Shown: positions 32,358 to 38,915 of the stretch, one piece after another
How the letters are laid out: each line of letters opens with the position of its first letter
How positions within the stretch are numbered: position 1 is the stretch's first letter
DNA from: Roseovarius confluentis
GTDB taxonomy: Bacteria > Pseudomonadota > Alphaproteobacteria > Rhodobacterales > Rhodobacteraceae
Assembly: GCF_002917925.1 (NCBI RefSeq)
Contig: NZ_PPFE01000008.1
Location: 1 to 64,000, forward strand
Length of the DNA: 64,000 nt
Direction of reading: 5' to 3'
Notes under the pieces: generated by a model
Databases searched by the model: none
The model's input: the letters and a program-made list of their open reading frames with translations, nothing else
What the model was told of the DNA's origin: nothing
Translations under genes and position numbers: made by a program

Positions 32358-33617
32358 ATGCGTCGAGTGGTTGTGACGGGTCTGGGTCTTGTGACCCCGC
32401 TGGCATCTGGCGTGGAGGAGAGCTGGAGCCGCATTCTGGAAGGGAAGTCAGGAGCGGGCACCATCACGCGGTTCGATCCCACGAACGTGGCCACGAAATA
32501 CGCCTGCGAAGTGCCCTTGGGCGACGGCAGCGACGGCACCTTCAACTCCGAAGATTACATGGAGCCCAAGGAGCGCCGGAAAGTGGATGATTTCATCCTC
32601 TATGGCGTTGCGGCGGCCGAACAGGCCGTGCGGGACGCCGATTGGCTGCCCGAGGACGAGGAAAGCCGCCTGCGCACTGGTGTTATGATCGGGTCCGGCA
32701 TCGGCGGGCTGCGCTCGATCGAGGAGACGACGCTGCTTATTCGCGACCGTGGCGTGCGGCGGGTGTCACCCTTCTTTATTCCCGGCGCGCTTATCAACCT
32801 GATCAGCGGGCAGGTCAGCATTCGCTACGGCTTCAAGGGGCCGAACCACGCGGTTGTGACCGCCTGTTCGACGGGGGCGCATGCCATAGGCGATGCGGCG
32901 CGGTTGATCCAGCACGGGGACGCGGACGTGATGATCGCGGGTGGTGCCGAAGCGGCGATCTGCGAGATCGGTATTGCCGGCTTCAACGCCTGCAAGGCAC
33001 TGTCCACAAAACGCGCCGACGACCCGCAAGGCGCCAGCCGCCCCTACGACGCCGACCGCGACGGCTTCGTGATGGGCGAGGGGGCTGGCATGGTCGTGCT
33101 GGAGGAGTACGAGCACGCCAAGGCGCGCGGTGCCAAGATCTATGCCGAAGTCCTTGGCTATGGCCTGTCGGGTGACGCCTATCACATCACCGCACCCGCA
33201 GAGGATGGCGATGGCGGGTTCCGCGCCATGCAGGGTGCGCTGCGCAATGCCGGGATCGAGCCTGCCGACGTGGATTACATCAACGCCCACGGCACCAGCA
33301 CCATGGCCGACACTATCGAACTGAAGGCGGTTGAGAAACTGCTGGGTGATGCGGCCTCGAAAGCGACCATGAGTTCGACCAAATCCTCGACCGGGCACCT
33401 GTTGGGTGCGGCCGGGGCGATCGAGGGCATCTTCTCGATCCTGGCCATTCGTGACCAGGTGGCGCCGCCGACGATCAATCTGGACAATCCGGCAGTGGAA
33501 ACGCCGATGAACCTGGCCGCCAACGCCAAGCATGAACGCGAGATCAAGGTGGCACTGTCCAACAGCTTCGGTTTCGGCGGCACCAATGCCTGTCTCTGCA
33601 TCGGGGCCGTACGCTGA
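32358..33617 (+). CDS. fabF: 3-oxoacyl-ACP synthase II
   Basis: 419 residues, a condensing enzyme that elongates acyl-ACP with malonyl-ACP. The catalytic triad is complete: Cys in VVTACSTGAHAIGD, His in NAHGTSTMADTIE and His in SSTGHLLGAAGA. The N-terminus RRVVVTGLGLVTPLASGV is typical. Its stop overlaps the mltG start (TGATG). Confidence 0.97.
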   Translation: MRRVVVTGLGLVTPLASGVEESWSRILEGKSGAGTITRFDPTNVATKYACEVPLGDGSDGTFNSEDYMEPKERRKVDDFILYGVAAAEQAVRDADWLPEDEESRLRTGVMIGSGIGGLRSIEETTLLIRDRGVRRVSPFFIPGALINLISGQVSIRYGFKGPNHAVVTACSTGAHAIGDAARLIQHGDADVMIAGGAEAAICEIGIAGFNACKALSTKRADDPQGASRPYDADRDGFVMGEGAGMVVLEEYEHAKARGAKIYAEVLGYGLSGDAYHITAPAEDGDGGFRAMQGALRNAGIEPADVDYINAHGTSTMADTIELKAVEKLLGDAASKATMSSTKSSTGHLLGAAGAIEGIFSILAIRDQVAPPTINLDNPAVETPMNLAANAKHEREIKVALSNSFGFGGTNACLCIGAVR

Positions 33618-34786
33618 TGTGGCGGCACATCGCGTCGAATTTCCTGACGTTTCTTGTTGTCGTGGTCTTCCTGTTGGGCGGGGTAATCCTTTGGGGCCAG
33701 AACGAATACCAGGCCACGGGTCCGCTGGAAGAGCCGATCTGCCTTCAGGTACCGCGCGGCAGTTCGATGCGCGGTATCTCGGCCGATCTGGCCGAGCAGG
33801 GCGCGATCACCAGCGAGCGGATCTTCCGCATCGGTGCGGACTACACCGACAAGACGCAGCTTCTAAAGGCTGGTAGCTGGCTGATCCCCGAAGGCTCCAC
33901 CATGGGCGAGATCACCGATATCGTGACCCGAGGCGGGGCCAGCACCTGTGGCACCGAGGTGGTGTACCGCATCGGCGTCAATGCGAGCGAGGTCGAGGTG
34001 CGCGAACTGGACCCGGCCACCAATCGCTTTGTCGAGGTTGCGGCCTTCGATCCGCAGGCCGAGGAGGTCACTCCTCCCGCCGAATTCACCGAGGTGCGTG
34101 ATCAGGCCGACACCCGCTACCGCGTGGCCGTCGCCGAAGGCGTGACCAGCTGGCAGGTGGTGAACGCGCTTGGTGCGTTCGACGCGCTGGATGGTGAGGT
34201 GGCGGCGGTGCCGCCCGAGGGCAGCCTTGCGCCGAACAGTTACGAGTTCAGCGTGGGCGACACCCGCGAAAGCATTCTGACCCGGATGCGCGAGGCGCAG
34301 GAATTGATCCTGACCGAGGCCTGGCAGAACCGCGCGTCGGACATTGCCGTCGAGACGCCCGAAGAGGCGCTGATCCTCGCCTCGATCATCGAGAAGGAAA
34401 CCGGCGTGCCCACCGAACGCGGGCAGGTTGCGAGCGTCTTTACCAACCGGCTGCAAGAAGGGATGCGGCTGCAGACCGACCCCACCGTGATCTATGGCAT
34501 CACGAATGGCGAGGGCGTGCTGGGCCGCGGCCTGCGCCAGAGCGAGCTGCGTGCCGAGACGCCCTACAATACCTACGTCATCGACGGGTTGCCGCCGACG
34601 CCCATCGCCAATCCCGGCCGCGCCAGCATCGAGGCGGCGGTAAACCCCGAGGATACTGACTATGTGTTCTTCGTGGCTCGCACGCTGGACCCGCGCGACG
34701 GGCACCTCTTCGCTGAAACGCTCGAAGAGCATAACCGCAACGTCGCGGCCTACCGCGCGCTGGAGGCCGAACGCGCCAACCAGTAG
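33617..34786 (+). CDS. mltG: Endolytic murein transglycosylase MltG
   Basis: 389 residues, anchored by one N-terminal helix (LTFLVVVVFLLGGVILWG), with the catalytic domain in the periplasm. It cuts nascent glycan strands and sets their length. The catalytic Glu lies in LILASIIEKETGVPTERGQV and the substrate motif DPTVIYGIT is present. Translationally coupled to fabF, the usual pairing in alphaproteobacteria. The C-terminal YNTYVIDGLPPTPIANPG is the family signature. Confidence 0.95.
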   Translation: MWRHIASNFLTFLVVVVFLLGGVILWGQNEYQATGPLEEPICLQVPRGSSMRGISADLAEQGAITSERIFRIGADYTDKTQLLKAGSWLIPEGSTMGEITDIVTRGGASTCGTEVVYRIGVNASEVEVRELDPATNRFVEVAAFDPQAEEVTPPAEFTEVRDQADTRYRVAVAEGVTSWQVVNALGAFDALDGEVAAVPPEGSLAPNSYEFSVGDTRESILTRMREAQELILTEAWQNRASDIAVETPEEALILASIIEKETGVPTERGQVASVFTNRLQEGMRLQTDPTVIYGITNGEGVLGRGLRQSELRAETPYNTYVIDGLPPTPIANPGRASIEAAVNPEDTDYVFFVARTLDPRDGHLFAETLEEHNRNVAAYRALEAERANQ

Positions 34787-34944: not shown

Positions 34945-35295
34945 ATGCCATTGATCACGCAAGATCGGACCCCTTCCCAGGTCACGCTGTCGATAGACGC
35001 GCTCGAGAAGCAGCTGTCGGCCATGCGCGCCGATCTGGAGGCGGTCTACGCCCAGATCAGGCGTGGGCAATTCGGTGACCTGAAAGACGCCAGGCGCGCC
35101 ACGTCGGAAATACGGCAATGGCTGAAGATCGCGATAGATGCGGAGACACAACTTGCAAAAAGAAGAGAAAAAGAGCTTGGCGTCGCGGATGGATACGCCC
35201 TCGACCTCGAAGAAGCCCGGGAAAGTATCGGATGTCGACTGGCTCGTCTCCGCAGGGCCCGAGACGCAGAAAGAGTTTCTGGACAGCCTGAGTGA
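34945..35295 (+). CDS. GTA gp1-like small terminase
   Basis: 116 residues, mostly helical and charged. The region QIRRGQFGDLKDARRATSEI and IRQWLKIAIDAETQLAKRRE resembles the first gene (g1, TerS) of Rhodobacter-type gene transfer agent clusters, and it lies directly before a large-terminase reading frame, as g1 does. I chose ATG 34945 over an upstream ATG at 34903 because the family starts near here and GAGG is upstream. Its last 158 bases overlap the next gene in another frame. In a working agent it would help feed DNA to the packaging motor. Confidence 0.65.
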   Translation: MPLITQDRTPSQVTLSIDALEKQLSAMRADLEAVYAQIRRGQFGDLKDARRATSEIRQWLKIAIDAETQLAKRREKELGVADGYALDLEEARESIGCRLARLRRARDAERVSGQPE

Positions 35296-37660
35296 CGGCG
35301 AAATCCTGTCGCTGCCGTACCTGTTCGATTTCTGGGCGATGGAGCACCAGCGCCCGCCCGAAGGCGACTGGCGCACATGGGTCATCCTGGGCGGGCGGGG
35401 CGCGGGCAAGACACGCGCAGGGGCCGAATGGGTGCGCGGCCAGGTCGAGGGGGCCAGGCCGCTTGACGCGGGCCGGTGTCATCGCCTGGCCCTGGTGGGC
35501 GAGACCATCGACCAGGTGCGCGACGTGATGATCTTCGGTGAAAGCGGTATCATGGCCTGCTCGCCGCCCGATCGTCGCCCTGTCTGGCAGGCGACGCGCA
35601 AGCGGCTTCAATGGCCCAACGGCGCAGTCGCGCAGGTTTTCTCGGCACATGACCCGGAGAGCCTGCGCGGGCCGCAATTCGACGGCGCCTGGGTGGACGA
35701 GTATGGCTGCGCAGCCGTGGACAAGGGCACCAACCAGCCCAACAAGTTCCTCGATCCGAAATCCTCGGAATCCACCCTGCCGCATTTCTCGGACGGGCGC
35801 CGCGACGAGCTGATACAACAGCAATACCTGCGCGCTTTTCTTGGCTATTGGAACGATCCCGCCAACAACCCGCAATCGGACGTCTACGACGGCGCGATGC
35901 TGGACATGGATCACGCATATGCCTGGGCCTGGGACATGCGGCCCTATCCGAATTTCCCAAACAATCGCGACTTATGGAGCGATGGCGCCAATTACACACG
36001 AGGTCACTGGCTCAACGGGCGCATCTCGTCCCGCACGCTGGCCTCGGTCATCGAGGAAATTTGCCTGAGGTCAGGCCTGAACGCCTGTGACACGTCCGGG
36101 GCCCACGGGTTGGTGCGCGGCTACACGGTCGACCAGGTATCCGAAGCCCGCAGCGCCCTGCAACCGCTGATGCTGCGCTATGGCGTCGACGCGGTGGAAC
36201 GGGACGGGCGTCTGCGTTTCATCATGCGCGACGGCGGGACCGATCGCGTGATCGACCTTGATACGCTGGTGCGTGACCCCGAGATGGACAGCGTCCTGGA
36301 GGAGACGCGCGGCAGCACCGTGGAACTGGCGGGCCGCGTCCGCCTGCGCTTTATCGAGGCTGACGGGGATTTCGAGGTCATCGCCGAAGAGGCGATCCTG
36401 CCCGACAACGCCACCAATGGTGTTTCGATTTCGGAATTTCCGCTGGCCATGACCCGCGCCGAGGGCCGCCAGACCGTTGAACGCTGGCTGTCCGAGGCGC
36501 GCCTCGCCACGGACACCCTGCGCCTGACCCTGCCGCCCTCGCAACTCGAGACCGGCGCGGGTGATGTCATCGCGATTCCCGAAGGACAGGGCAGGGGACT
36601 TTTCCGCATCGACCGGGCCGACCAGATGGCCGGGGCGCAAAAGCTCGAAGCGGTGCGGACTGAACCCGAAAGCTATCGCCCGGCCGAATTCGAGGACGAG
36701 GCCGTGACCCTGCGTCCCTTCGTGGCGCCGTCGCCGGTGGCACCGTTCTTTCTCGACCTGCCGCTTTTGACCGGCGACGAGGTGCCTCACGCACCATATC
36801 TCGCGGTCACCGCCAACCCCTGGCCCGGCTCTGTCGCACTGTATGCCTCGGACGAGGATTCGAACTATGCCCTCAACAGCCTTGTGACGGCCCGCACCCC
36901 CGTGGGTGTGCTGGAAACGCCGCTCTTTCCGGCCCACGCGGGCCGCATCGACCGCGGACCCGCCGTGCAGGTGCGGATGCTGGGCGGCAGTTTGGAAAGC
37001 ATCAGCGACCTGGCGCTCTTTAATGGCGGCAACCTTTGCGCCATCGGCGACGGCACCCCCGACGCGTGGGAGCTCATCCAGTTCCGTGATGCAGACCTCG
37101 TCGACATCGACACGTACCTGCTCAGCCACCGCCTGCGCGGACAGGTCGGCACCGAGCGTGCCGAGGCCTGGCCACAAGGCAGCTATCTGGTGCGCCTCAA
37201 TGGCACCGCCAAGCAGATTGAGCTGTCCAAGGCCAAGCGCGGGCTGGCGCGCTACTACCGGATCGGCCCCGCCGGGCGCCCGGTGGACGACCCCAGCTTC
37301 AGCGCGGTGCGGCTGGCTTTCGACGGGCTGGGCCTGAGGCCGCTGTCGCCGGTGCATCTGAGGCTTTCGGCGGGCGCGGGCGGCGCCCTGTCGATCAGCT
37401 GGATCCGGCGCACCCGGATTGACGGTGACCGCTGGGACACCGCCGATGTGCCGCTGGGCGAGGACCGCGAGGAATACCTCGTGCGCGTGGTGCAGCAGGA
37501 CGCGGTGATCCGCCAGACCAGCACGACGTCGCCGGTCTGGACCTACAGCGCGGCGGATCAGGCCGCCGACGCACTGTCAGGTCTTTACGAGATTCAGGTC
37601 GCGCAGGTTTCCGCGCGCTTCGGGCCGGGCCGCTTTGCGCGGATCGAGGTGACCGCATGA
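35138..37660 (+). CDS. In-frame chimera: GTA large terminase N-terminus joined to gp15 C-terminal half
   Basis: 840 residues. Residues 1-188 match the GTA large terminase ATPase: FLDSLSDGEILSLPYLFDFW, Walker A GGRGAGKTRAGAEW (85-98), SAHDPESLRGPQFDGAW and Walker B Asp187-Glu188. From Tyr189 (YGCAAVDKGTNQPNKFLDP) to the end it matches the part of gp15, the host-specificity tail protein, that follows its TIM-barrel domain (KSSESTLPHFSDG, WAWDMRPYPNFP, RGHWLNGRISS). The terminase nuclease and genes g3-g14 are missing. ATG 35189 is an alternative start. The frame is intact, so deletion at short homology such as GACGAG is likely. It may or may not be expressed. Confidence 0.8.
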   Translation: MRRHNLQKEEKKSLASRMDTPSTSKKPGKVSDVDWLVSAGPETQKEFLDSLSDGEILSLPYLFDFWAMEHQRPPEGDWRTWVILGGRGAGKTRAGAEWVRGQVEGARPLDAGRCHRLALVGETIDQVRDVMIFGESGIMACSPPDRRPVWQATRKRLQWPNGAVAQVFSAHDPESLRGPQFDGAWVDEYGCAAVDKGTNQPNKFLDPKSSESTLPHFSDGRRDELIQQQYLRAFLGYWNDPANNPQSDVYDGAMLDMDHAYAWAWDMRPYPNFPNNRDLWSDGANYTRGHWLNGRISSRTLASVIEEICLRSGLNACDTSGAHGLVRGYTVDQVSEARSALQPLMLRYGVDAVERDGRLRFIMRDGGTDRVIDLDTLVRDPEMDSVLEETRGSTVELAGRVRLRFIEADGDFEVIAEEAILPDNATNGVSISEFPLAMTRAEGRQTVERWLSEARLATDTLRLTLPPSQLETGAGDVIAIPEGQGRGLFRIDRADQMAGAQKLEAVRTEPESYRPAEFEDEAVTLRPFVAPSPVAPFFLDLPLLTGDEVPHAPYLAVTANPWPGSVALYASDEDSNYALNSLVTARTPVGVLETPLFPAHAGRIDRGPAVQVRMLGGSLESISDLALFNGGNLCAIGDGTPDAWELIQFRDADLVDIDTYLLSHRLRGQVGTERAEAWPQGSYLVRLNGTAKQIELSKAKRGLARYYRIGPAGRPVDDPSFSAVRLAFDGLGLRPLSPVHLRLSAGAGGALSISWIRRTRIDGDRWDTADVPLGEDREEYLVRVVQQDAVIRQTSTTSPVWTYSAADQAADALSGLYEIQVAQVSARFGPGRFARIEVTA

Positions 37661-37684: not shown

Positions 37685-38023
37685 TCAGCCGCGCGCGCAC
37701 TCCACGCAGCGCGTCGCGGCCGGGTCCAGTTTCAGGCGGCCAAGGACAATCTCCTCGCCGCAATCCTCGCAATAGCCGAACTCGCCCTCGTCCATCCGGG
37801 CAAGGGCGGAGGTCAGCCGCGCCCGCTCCCCGGCGCGGCGCGCATCCGTGGCCCTGGCCATCGCCTGGTTCTGCAACGCGTCCATCCGGCTCAGACGACC
37901 GACCGATTGCTGGTCCAGCTCCACCGTGGCCTTGCCCGCCGCGCCACGGACGTCTTCGTCGTCGAGTTCCGCCAGACGCGTCTCGATCAGTGCGCGAAAA
38001 TCCCTGATATCTGCTTCATTCAT
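37685..38023 (-). CDS. DksA/TraR-type zinc finger protein
   Basis: 112 residues from the ATG at 38023. An N-terminal coiled-coil region (RLSRMDALQNQAMARATDAR) is followed by a four-Cys zinc finger with CEDCGEE and CVECARG. It is shorter than DksA (151 residues) and belongs to the short DksA/TraR-like proteins that may bind the RNA polymerase secondary channel. It converges with the terminase chimera and is divergent to cysE. Confidence 0.85.
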   Translation of the reverse strand: MNEADIRDFRALIETRLAELDDEDVRGAAGKATVELDQQSVGRLSRMDALQNQAMARATDARRAGERARLTSALARMDEGEFGYCEDCGEEIVLGRLKLDPAATRCVECARG

Positions 38024-38066
38024 TTTCGTGAACCCACCCATGACGCCTTTGCATTTTACGGATCGA

Positions 38067-38083: not shown

Positions 38084-38108
38084 GATACTCGCACCAAGGA
38101 GCATGCAC

Positions 38109-38915
38109 ATGGCGAACACACATGCAAAGCTGGCCGAGCTTGACCCGGTCTGGGCCCGGATCAACACCGAGGCGGAGACCGCGATAAAGGACGAGCCGCT
38201 GCTTGGCGGGCTCATCCATTCGTCGATCCTGCACCACAAGACCATCGAATCCGCGTTGGCCTACCGCACGTCGATGAAACTGGGCTCGCACGAGATGCCC
38301 GAGCAGCTTCTGCGCGAAATCTGCGACATGGCCTATGCCGACGACCCCGAACTGGGGCAGGCCGCGCGCGCCGATATCGTCGCCGTCTATGACCGTGACC
38401 CGGCCTGCGACCGCTTTATCCTGCCGATGCTGTTCTTCAAGGGCTTCCAGGCGGTCCAGGCCTACCGCGTGGCGAACTGGCTGTGGCGCACCGATCGCCG
38501 CGACATGGCGCGTTTCTTCCAGATGCGCTGCTCCGAGGTGTTCGGCGTCGATATCCACCCCGCCGCCCGCATCGGCAAGGGCATCATGATCGACCACGCC
38601 CACTCCATCGTGATCGGCGAAACCGCCGTGGTGGGCGACAACGTTTCGATGCTGCACTCCGTGACCCTCGGCGGCACCGGCAAGGAAGAGGAAGACCGCC
38701 ACCCCAAGATCGGCGACGGCGTCCTGATTGGCGCTGGTGCCAAGGTCCTTGGCAACATCAAGGTCGGCCATTGCAGCCGCATCGCCGCCGGTTCGGTGGT
38801 GCTGCAGGAGGTGCCGCCCTGCAAGACGGTCGCGGGCGTGCCGGCCAAGATCGTCGGAGAGGCGGGCTGTGATCAGCCCTCCGTCGCGATGGATCAGCTT
38901 CTGGGCGTTCGCTGA
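38109..38915 (+). CDS. cysE: Serine O-acetyltransferase
   Basis: 268 residues from the ATG at 38109, chosen because AAGGAG then has 7-base spacing; ATG 38103 lies too close to it. It makes O-acetylserine for cysteine synthesis. The N-terminal helical domain and the left-handed beta-helix are clear (GIMIDHAHSIVIGETAVVGD, then VTLGGTGKEEEDRHPKIGDG). The catalytic His in DHAH is present. CysE commonly flanks GTA clusters in Rhodobacterales as I recall, which fits the remnant upstream. Confidence 0.95.
   Translation: MANTHAKLAELDPVWARINTEAETAIKDEPLLGGLIHSSILHHKTIESALAYRTSMKLGSHEMPEQLLREICDMAYADDPELGQAARADIVAVYDRDPACDRFILPMLFFKGFQAVQAYRVANWLWRTDRRDMARFFQMRCSEVFGVDIHPAARIGKGIMIDHAHSIVIGETAVVGDNVSMLHSVTLGGTGKEEEDRHPKIGDGVLIGAGAKVLGNIKVGHCSRIAAGSVVLQEVPPCKTVAGVPAKIVGEAGCDQPSVAMDQLLGVR

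Follow-up and report, generated by a model that had tools for sequence, protein, structure and literature searches.

A recurrent, codon-exact terminase-megatron chimera at the gene transfer agent locus of Roseovarius and other Rhodobacteraceae

Gene transfer agent (GTA) clusters can be lost, and the locus described here raises the question of why one and the same remnant, joined at one and the same codon, is left behind in many genomes. The window analyzed is a stretch of 64,000 nucleotides (nt) from Roseovarius confluentis (assembly GCF_002917925.1, contig NZ_PPFE01000008.1, positions 1 to 64,000; genome G000 below), and its coordinates are used unless another genome is named. At the GTA site between mltG and cysE, this window holds a frame of 840 amino acids (aa) (35138-37660, forward strand) that was found in the open reading frame list and has a counterpart in 26 other genomes. 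The original prediction had read this frame as the start of a GTA large terminase that changes at the Walker B Asp-Glu to the C-terminal half of gp15, the megatron, and Pfam, NCBIfam and PHROGs all agree with this reading. At least 27 genomes, 9 from Roseovarius and 18 others, carry this chimera with its join at the identical Glu codon. GTA loss itself is known, and what appears to be new is the recurrence of a codon-exact, in-frame terminase-megatron chimera. No published mention of it was found in the literature searched, which was available in part and scarcely covers subscription journals, and the words "fusion" and "fused" are absent from the accessible part of PMC9836097.

The terminase part comprises residues 1-188 (35138-35701, forward strand), and this N-terminal ATPase half runs from Walker A (GGRGAGKT) to Walker B (WVDE). 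The Pfam family Terminase_6N (PF03237) matches residues 83-189; the match breaks off at the Walker B Glu (position 105 of 215 in the model). This residue, Glu188, is the junction codon (35699-35701, forward strand), and the identical Glu is found in all 27 chimeras. The other 652 residues (189-840; 35702-37660, forward strand) form the megatron part, in which Pfam recognizes a TIM-barrel remnant (GTA_TIM, last third only, residues 179-274), Phage-tail_3 (residues 332-494) and Rcc01698_C (residues 589-685). The NCBIfam model GTA_megatron (NF048004) aligns its positions 643-1298 of 1299 to residues 183-837, with a score of 770 bits, slightly below the curated cut-off of 800. No terminase nuclease domain was found further along the chimera with Pfam. 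Walker A and the W.DE motif are unchanged in all 24 aligned chimeras. A single known family covering both parts, which would have refuted the original prediction, was not found in Pfam, NCBIfam or PHROGs, although the 27 chimeras themselves now make up a set of that kind. AlphaFold models were considered as a structural argument; the confidence is low after the junction in the chimera and equally low in an intact control, so the structure does not decide.

In a near relative, G006, the corresponding site between mltG and cysE is occupied by an intact GTA cluster, whose terminase has 470 aa and whose megatron has 1,348 aa, and which includes a capsid gene (PF05065). The capsid gene is named by its family, and the portal and tail genes of G006 are presumed to be such from their place in the cluster. 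Compared with G006, the missing DNA starts just after the terminase Glu codon and ends just after the megatron Glu codon; these breakpoints are ~12.0 kb apart in G006, as calculated from its coordinates. This bears out the predicted in-frame deletion of roughly 10 kb or more, which runs from the nuclease half up to the middle of gp15. At the locus, no match was found to the portal-place, capsid, g13-place and g14-place genes of G006, to the C-terminal half of its terminase or to the N-terminal half of its megatron. Searching the rest of the window's genome (completeness 99.96), which the original prediction had proposed as a check, yielded no intact GTA cluster and no match to the HK97-type capsid family PF05065. 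This family is likewise without a match in the chimera genomes G035, G068 and G003, which makes four of the eight Roseovarius chimera genomes in all; the PF05065 matches in G083, G012, G034 and G016 sit elsewhere than the chimera locus. Cells with the chimera presumably make no particles.

The chimera is widespread and patchy. Among the matches listed for the whole chimera as query, at least 8 of 84 Roseovarius genomes are chimeric; seven of these eight have no other match among those listed, and G012 has a second, distant terminase match (42%). In the family, at least 17 of 394 genomes (393 genera, window included) carry it, as detected with a 196-aa query across the junction that gave one match each; these matches run down to weak ones, and diverged or broken chimeras may be missed. 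The window's genome is counted in both the genus and the family set, and two of the 16 further chimera genera are single-genome genera in the collection. The family is the GTDB Rhodobacteraceae, of which NCBI puts some records in Roseobacteraceae and some in Paracoccaceae. Only G000 and G162 are chimeric among 385 genomes of the class, and both are already in the 27-genome set. Three more chimeras come from named genomes, namely an uncultured Roseovarius (L052), Shimia aestuarii AMM-P-2 (L055) and the uncultured Rhodobacteraceae K_MB387 (L056); Roseovarius sp. MMSF_3350 (L054) is chimeric too and is counted together with G012. Several chimeras lie in contigs of 3.9-5.4 Mb (G003:C2, G035:C1, G162:C1, G083:C1 and G016:C1). 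With an identical junction in 27 genomes, the original reading as one local event is wrong. Among the matches listed for the genus, G069 is the one further case of a cluster that is shortened but retains both ends, compared with 8 chimeras.

The chimera was also sought in mobile elements. In the phage collection, one record of 151 (H1) reached a query coverage of 80% or more, but its gene encodes an ordinary long tail protein of ~1,330 codons, and none of 14 plasmid records covered at least 80% of the chimera query. The exact degenerate junction pattern, which does match the chimera loci examined, gave no matches in IMG/VR, and a profile scan of the same database returned 80 loci among the matches listed, each matching one half only. 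GTA remnants of this sort may not be binned as viral.

The exactness of the junction is the feature that requires explanation. In all 27 chimeras, the terminase Asp-Glu is followed directly by the megatron motif xGCxA, and 70 columns around the junction align gap-free. The two stretches touching it, LRGPQFDxAWxDE and xGCxAxDKGTNQPN, are strongly conserved. A GACGAG-like microhomology had been suggested as the cause, and this is not supported: in 27 intact genomes, the in-register microhomology is 0 nt in 15, 1 nt in one, 3 nt in nine, 4 nt in one and 5 nt in one. Shared words of 8-12 nt do occur elsewhere within 300 nt of the breakpoints in intact genomes. Local DNA similarity between the two breakpoints was rejected as an explanation as well, since 30-nt windows are ordinary (30% of the grid is as good) and the high rank of 8-nt windows (top 2.7%) reflects the shared Glu codon. 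In Roseovarius, 53 terminase genes and 34 megatron genes show no peak of synonymous-site conservation at the breakpoints. As regards site-specific recombination, the shared core thus amounts to at most 5 nt and lies in no synonymous-site peak. The exactness of the junction is therefore accounted for neither by repeats nor by an evident DNA site. For the same reasons, many separate random deletions are very unlikely.

A single vertical origin of the chimera was rejected for each half. In protein trees of Roseovarius, chimeric and intact alleles interleave, and the chimeras need seven changes in both the terminase half (60 rows) and the megatron half (43 rows), six of which are forced by well-supported branches. 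A single chimera clade is rejected for both halves by the approximately unbiased (AU) test (p = 8e-58 for the terminase and 3e-77 for the megatron). In codon windows of the 36 genomes with both halves, one clade is rejected at ±60 codons (3e-14) and ±40 codons (2e-5), but not at ±20 (0.09) or ±10 (0.22); therefore, any shared tract is short, and within ±20 codons a single origin is not rejectable. An rpoB tree of 26 genomes gives six changes, three of them forced, and does not fix the position of intact G006 next to its chimeric neighbours G083, G012, G000 and G035. Two traces beside the junction appear to favour shared descent of a very short core, both weakly. The first is a codon signature found within Roseovarius, where TGC (Cys), GAA (Glu) and GAC (Asp) are commoner in chimeras (p = 0.008, 0.026 and 0.066, uncorrected and with kinship ignored; ranks 1, 3 and 7 of 120 codons). 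The second is a rise in identity over the last 15 codons, where G000, G035 and G083 are mutually 0.96 identical and 0.89 identical to intact G006.

The state of the frames and their constraint bear on the age and function of the remnant. All but three of the 27 chimeras have a complete frame: the exceptions are G162, with a frameshift, G419, with a stop, and G246, which is cut short by the contig end, so that 24 of 26 evaluable frames are unbroken. The ratio of nonsynonymous to synonymous substitution rates (dN/dS, NG86) among the chimeras G000, G035, G012 and G083 is 0.07-0.16 in the terminase half and 0.08-0.14 in the megatron half. By sub-region, at a dS of about 0.5, these four give 0.066 for the ATPase, 0.022 for the TIM-barrel remnant, 0.119 for the middle and 0.135 for the C-terminus. 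Intact groups give 0.015-0.080, 0.031-0.122, 0.048-0.098 and 0.078-0.200, respectively, and only in the middle part do the four chimeras lie slightly above the intact range. The chimera pair G034-G068 has higher values (0.34 and 0.25), and pairs with intact G021 are also high (0.23-0.37). Of 73 terminase sites that are invariant in 51 intact Roseovarius, 0.11 are changed on average in nine chimeras versus 0.24 in left-out intact sequences; of 163 megatron sites invariant in 34 Roseovarius megatrons, 2.0 are changed in chimeras versus 1.41 in left-out intact sequences. Within the genus, relaxation is thus absent from the N-terminal half and slight in the C-terminal half. Family-wide, chimeras break more intact-invariant sites (1.74 vs 0.32 in the terminase half, 0.59 vs 0.12 in the TIM remnant and 1.67 vs 0.65 in the rest), although this comparison is biased because the intact rows are mostly from Roseovarius or nearest to the Roseovarius query.

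Within Roseovarius, both halves are thus under near-normal purifying selection, close to that of intact clusters. Neither relaxed constraint nor a generally broken frame, as expected of a decaying pseudogene, was observed, although the family-wide test and the two broken frames weigh the other way. Near-normal constraint means that the loss is young in each lineage or that the remnant still works, and it fits either of the two readings of the original prediction, a fossil caught early or a selected chimera. As predicted, a g1-like gene, a putative small terminase, precedes the chimera and overlaps its start (34945-35295, forward strand); it is named by its place and by 80% identity to a gene in the intact cluster of G006, and has no significant family in Pfam, NCBIfam or PHROGs. 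Its dN/dS is 0.26-0.43 in the four relatives versus 0.06-0.27 in intact pairs, which may indicate relaxation, though the overlap with the next gene complicates this.

Parts of the GTA programme outside the cluster have been kept. The gene tspA is described as the detachable tailspike gene of RcGTA in the accessible part of a preprint (PMC13420450). Here, tspA was identified by its place beside lysS in G247 and G484, by its length and by a beta-helix match, and not by the Rhodobacter capsulatus sequence. In the window's genome, it is a 777-aa frame on another contig (C23:97805-100102). A homologue is present in 22 of 24 chimera genomes searched (all eight Roseovarius; not G419 and G444) and in 29 of 31 others (not G027 and G174). 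The aligned part is without a stop in 19 of 21 chimera genomes and 22 of 25 others; the gene is broken in G324, and the remaining stops lie within the first 20 aligned residues. Comparisons among the four related chimeras give a dN/dS of 0.05-0.08 for tspA, those with intact G006 give 0.07-0.08 and those within an intact trio 0.04-0.05; the value is 0.21 in G034-G068 and 0.22-0.24 with intact G021. A second gene, with the domain DUF2793, is present in 18 of 22 chimera genomes searched (seven of eight Roseovarius, the window's genome included) and in all 15 other Roseovarius searched; we take it to be the GTA tail fibre. In G351, G247, G324, G186, G484, G251 and G444, a DUF2793 gene follows the chimera on its downstream side, with its start no more than about 100 nt away. 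Among L372 (G035), L374 (G006), L377 (G083) and L382 (G000), the DUF2793 genes of G035 and G006 are 94% identical and the other five pairs 36-47%, unlike tspA, which is 92-97% identical among G000, G035, G012, G083 and G006. The history of this putative tail-fibre gene looks like repeated allele replacement.

The flanks of the locus are those common to intact clusters by synteny. On the left is mltG (YceG; 33617-34786, forward strand; PF02618) and on the right cysE (38103-38915, forward strand; PF06426 and PF00132), with a DksA/TraR-type zinc-finger gene in antisense between the chimera and cysE (37685-38041, reverse strand; PF01258). Other arrangements of GTA genes were also encountered. G110 (L164) and G069 (L157) each hold a GTA cluster that is also shortened but has other breakpoints and lacks the join of the chimera; these two are useful as controls for ordinary decay. 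In G024:C1, G077:C4 and G093:C2, terminase and megatron lie ~80 kb apart on opposite strands, and the GTA cluster itself seems split. Second megatron-like genes with 35-39% identity to the query occur in several Roseovarius (e.g., G013:C10, G010:C55, G081 and G086) and are perhaps prophage baseplates; none was among the matches listed for the eight Roseovarius chimera genomes. Around a megatron-like match at G528:C1:1672744-1673097, an open frame of 32,612 aa is reported, perhaps from masked sequence.

Three facts pull apart at this locus: the junction is identical without homology, which calls for one event or a directed event; the flanks are native almost to the junction, which calls for many events or a very short transfer; and constraint is near normal in Roseovarius. 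The explanation tentatively preferred, with a confidence somewhat short of even, is that one deletion allele arose in the family and then spread into many lineages through homologous recombination involving short DNA. The deletion would have joined the terminase Walker B Glu codon to the matching Glu codon of the megatron TIM-barrel domain, and would have removed the terminase nuclease half, the intervening genes (portal-place, capsid and tail-place genes in G006) and the megatron N-terminal half, leaving a single in-frame gene at the mltG-cysE site. The flanking stretches, being strongly conserved, could anchor crossovers close to the junction, and native flanks would be left behind. The change would be one-way because the intact cluster exceeds the capacity of a GTA particle; PMC6209664 states that most GTA clusters are longer than their own particles can hold. 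Non-producers would presumably gain by not lysing. A function of the remnant without particles would be possible, given that Walker motifs, hub domain, tailspike and fibre-like genes are retained. Single origin and horizontal spread are preferred because the flanking stretches are strongly conserved and because an exact repeat of the junction without homology would otherwise call for an unknown enzyme, and the patchy distribution in genus, family and class would also count for allele spread.

Several observations weigh against this spread of one allele. The residue after Glu differs between lineages, both among the chimeras, where it is Y, L, I, M, F or T, and among intact megatrons (Y, F, I, L, V or M). 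The related chimera G012 lacks the local identity rise of G000, G035 and G083 (0.82-0.87). From -10 to +5 codons, similarity between chimeras from different lineages falls below that between intact genes (for example, 0.867 vs 0.910 at -5 to 0); from +5 to +20 codons, they are slightly more alike (0.811 vs 0.769 and 0.794 vs 0.768), and a clear donor tract around the junction does not appear in these comparisons. L052 agrees with its intact relatives G032 and G074 in having ATNHPNR from the ninth codon after the junction onwards. The full constraint on tspA suggests that the loss is too recent for erosion of the flanks, unless TspA works without particles. Finally, a cell without a GTA cannot export the allele in GTA particles, so another route is needed.

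The main rival to the spread of a single allele is recurrent site-directed deletion, in which an enzyme or structure would cut and join at both codons in each lineage, recently. This somewhat unlikely alternative agrees with flanks that are lineage-specific nearly up to the junction, with the intact-like constraint on the ATPase half, the TIM remnant and tspA in Roseovarius, as if the loss were young everywhere, and with the chimera being the commonest partial loss among the matches listed for the genus. However, at most 3-5 nt are common to both sites, their resemblance is confined to the Glu codon, and a recognition site is not marked by synonymous-site conservation. A more far-reaching form, which we regard as rather unlikely, is that the GTA cluster has two coding positions at which it is excised repeatedly, codon-exactly and in frame by a site-directed process, and that the change from producer to non-producer yields a particle-free GTA programme. 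If directed excision were true, the non-producer would keep the operon start, a motor-hub chimera and a biofilm-degrading tailspike.

That random deletions occurred and only this in-frame join was useful, and was fixed again and again, is doubtful enough to be placed lower. One beta-strand ending in Glu may have been swapped for another, as read from the motifs. The largely unbroken frames, the Walker A and B motifs kept in all 24 aligned chimeras, the sub-region dN/dS of 0.02-0.14 in four chimeras whose frames are all complete and the tspA homologues in most chimera genomes all speak for such selection. However, not one codon of variation in 27 loci is hard to get by selection alone, and the 73 intact-invariant terminase sites are equally invariant in chimeras, which a new function would hardly demand. 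A plain decaying fossil, in frame only through youth and with neither function nor special mechanism, is slightly less credible still: it accommodates the broken frames of G162 and G419, the missing tspA matches in G419 and G444, the biased family-wide excess of changed sites, and the GTA loss and pseudogenization known elsewhere, but it leaves the identical junction in 27 genomes unexplained. An assembly or database artefact, misassembly included, is very unlikely, as judged from the assemblies, because the junction is identical in 27 genomes, several of them in contigs of 3.9-5.4 Mb, and four of the eight Roseovarius chimera genomes are without a capsid-family match anywhere.

How GTAs are kept or lost is a question in GTA evolution, and the chimera offers a single, recognizable marker of GTA loss that any genome can be checked for. 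With this marker, one could test if non-producers spread through species, if loss is a directed process, and if components of the GTA programme such as tailspike, fibre and lysis outlast the particle.

Compared with known systems, the locus resembles the RcGTA-type cluster of the Rhodobacterales in its mltG-cysE place, g1-like gene, terminase N-terminal half and megatron C-terminal half, as in G006, and differs from it in having no match to the G006 portal-place, capsid, g13-place and g14-place genes at the locus, nor to an HK97-type capsid in the genome. Among the features of a functional RcGTA-type cluster, the conserved place is present, as are ectopic genes in the form of a tspA homologue and a DUF2793 gene; the capsid gene and the other genes between terminase and megatron are without a match. 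Unlike the megatron of NF048004, the chimera is without the N-terminal half, including most of the TIM barrel, and scores below the cut-off. It shares Walker A and Walker B with the large terminase ATPases of PF03237, but stops at the Walker B Glu, and no nuclease domain was found in it. GTA loss and pseudogenization are known, and cheater lineages are discussed, in the accessible part of PMC10883770. The chimera is like those pseudogenized or lost clusters in that the particle gene set is gone, and unlike them, as far as that part describes them, in that one codon-exact, in-frame chimera recurs here and is mostly open.

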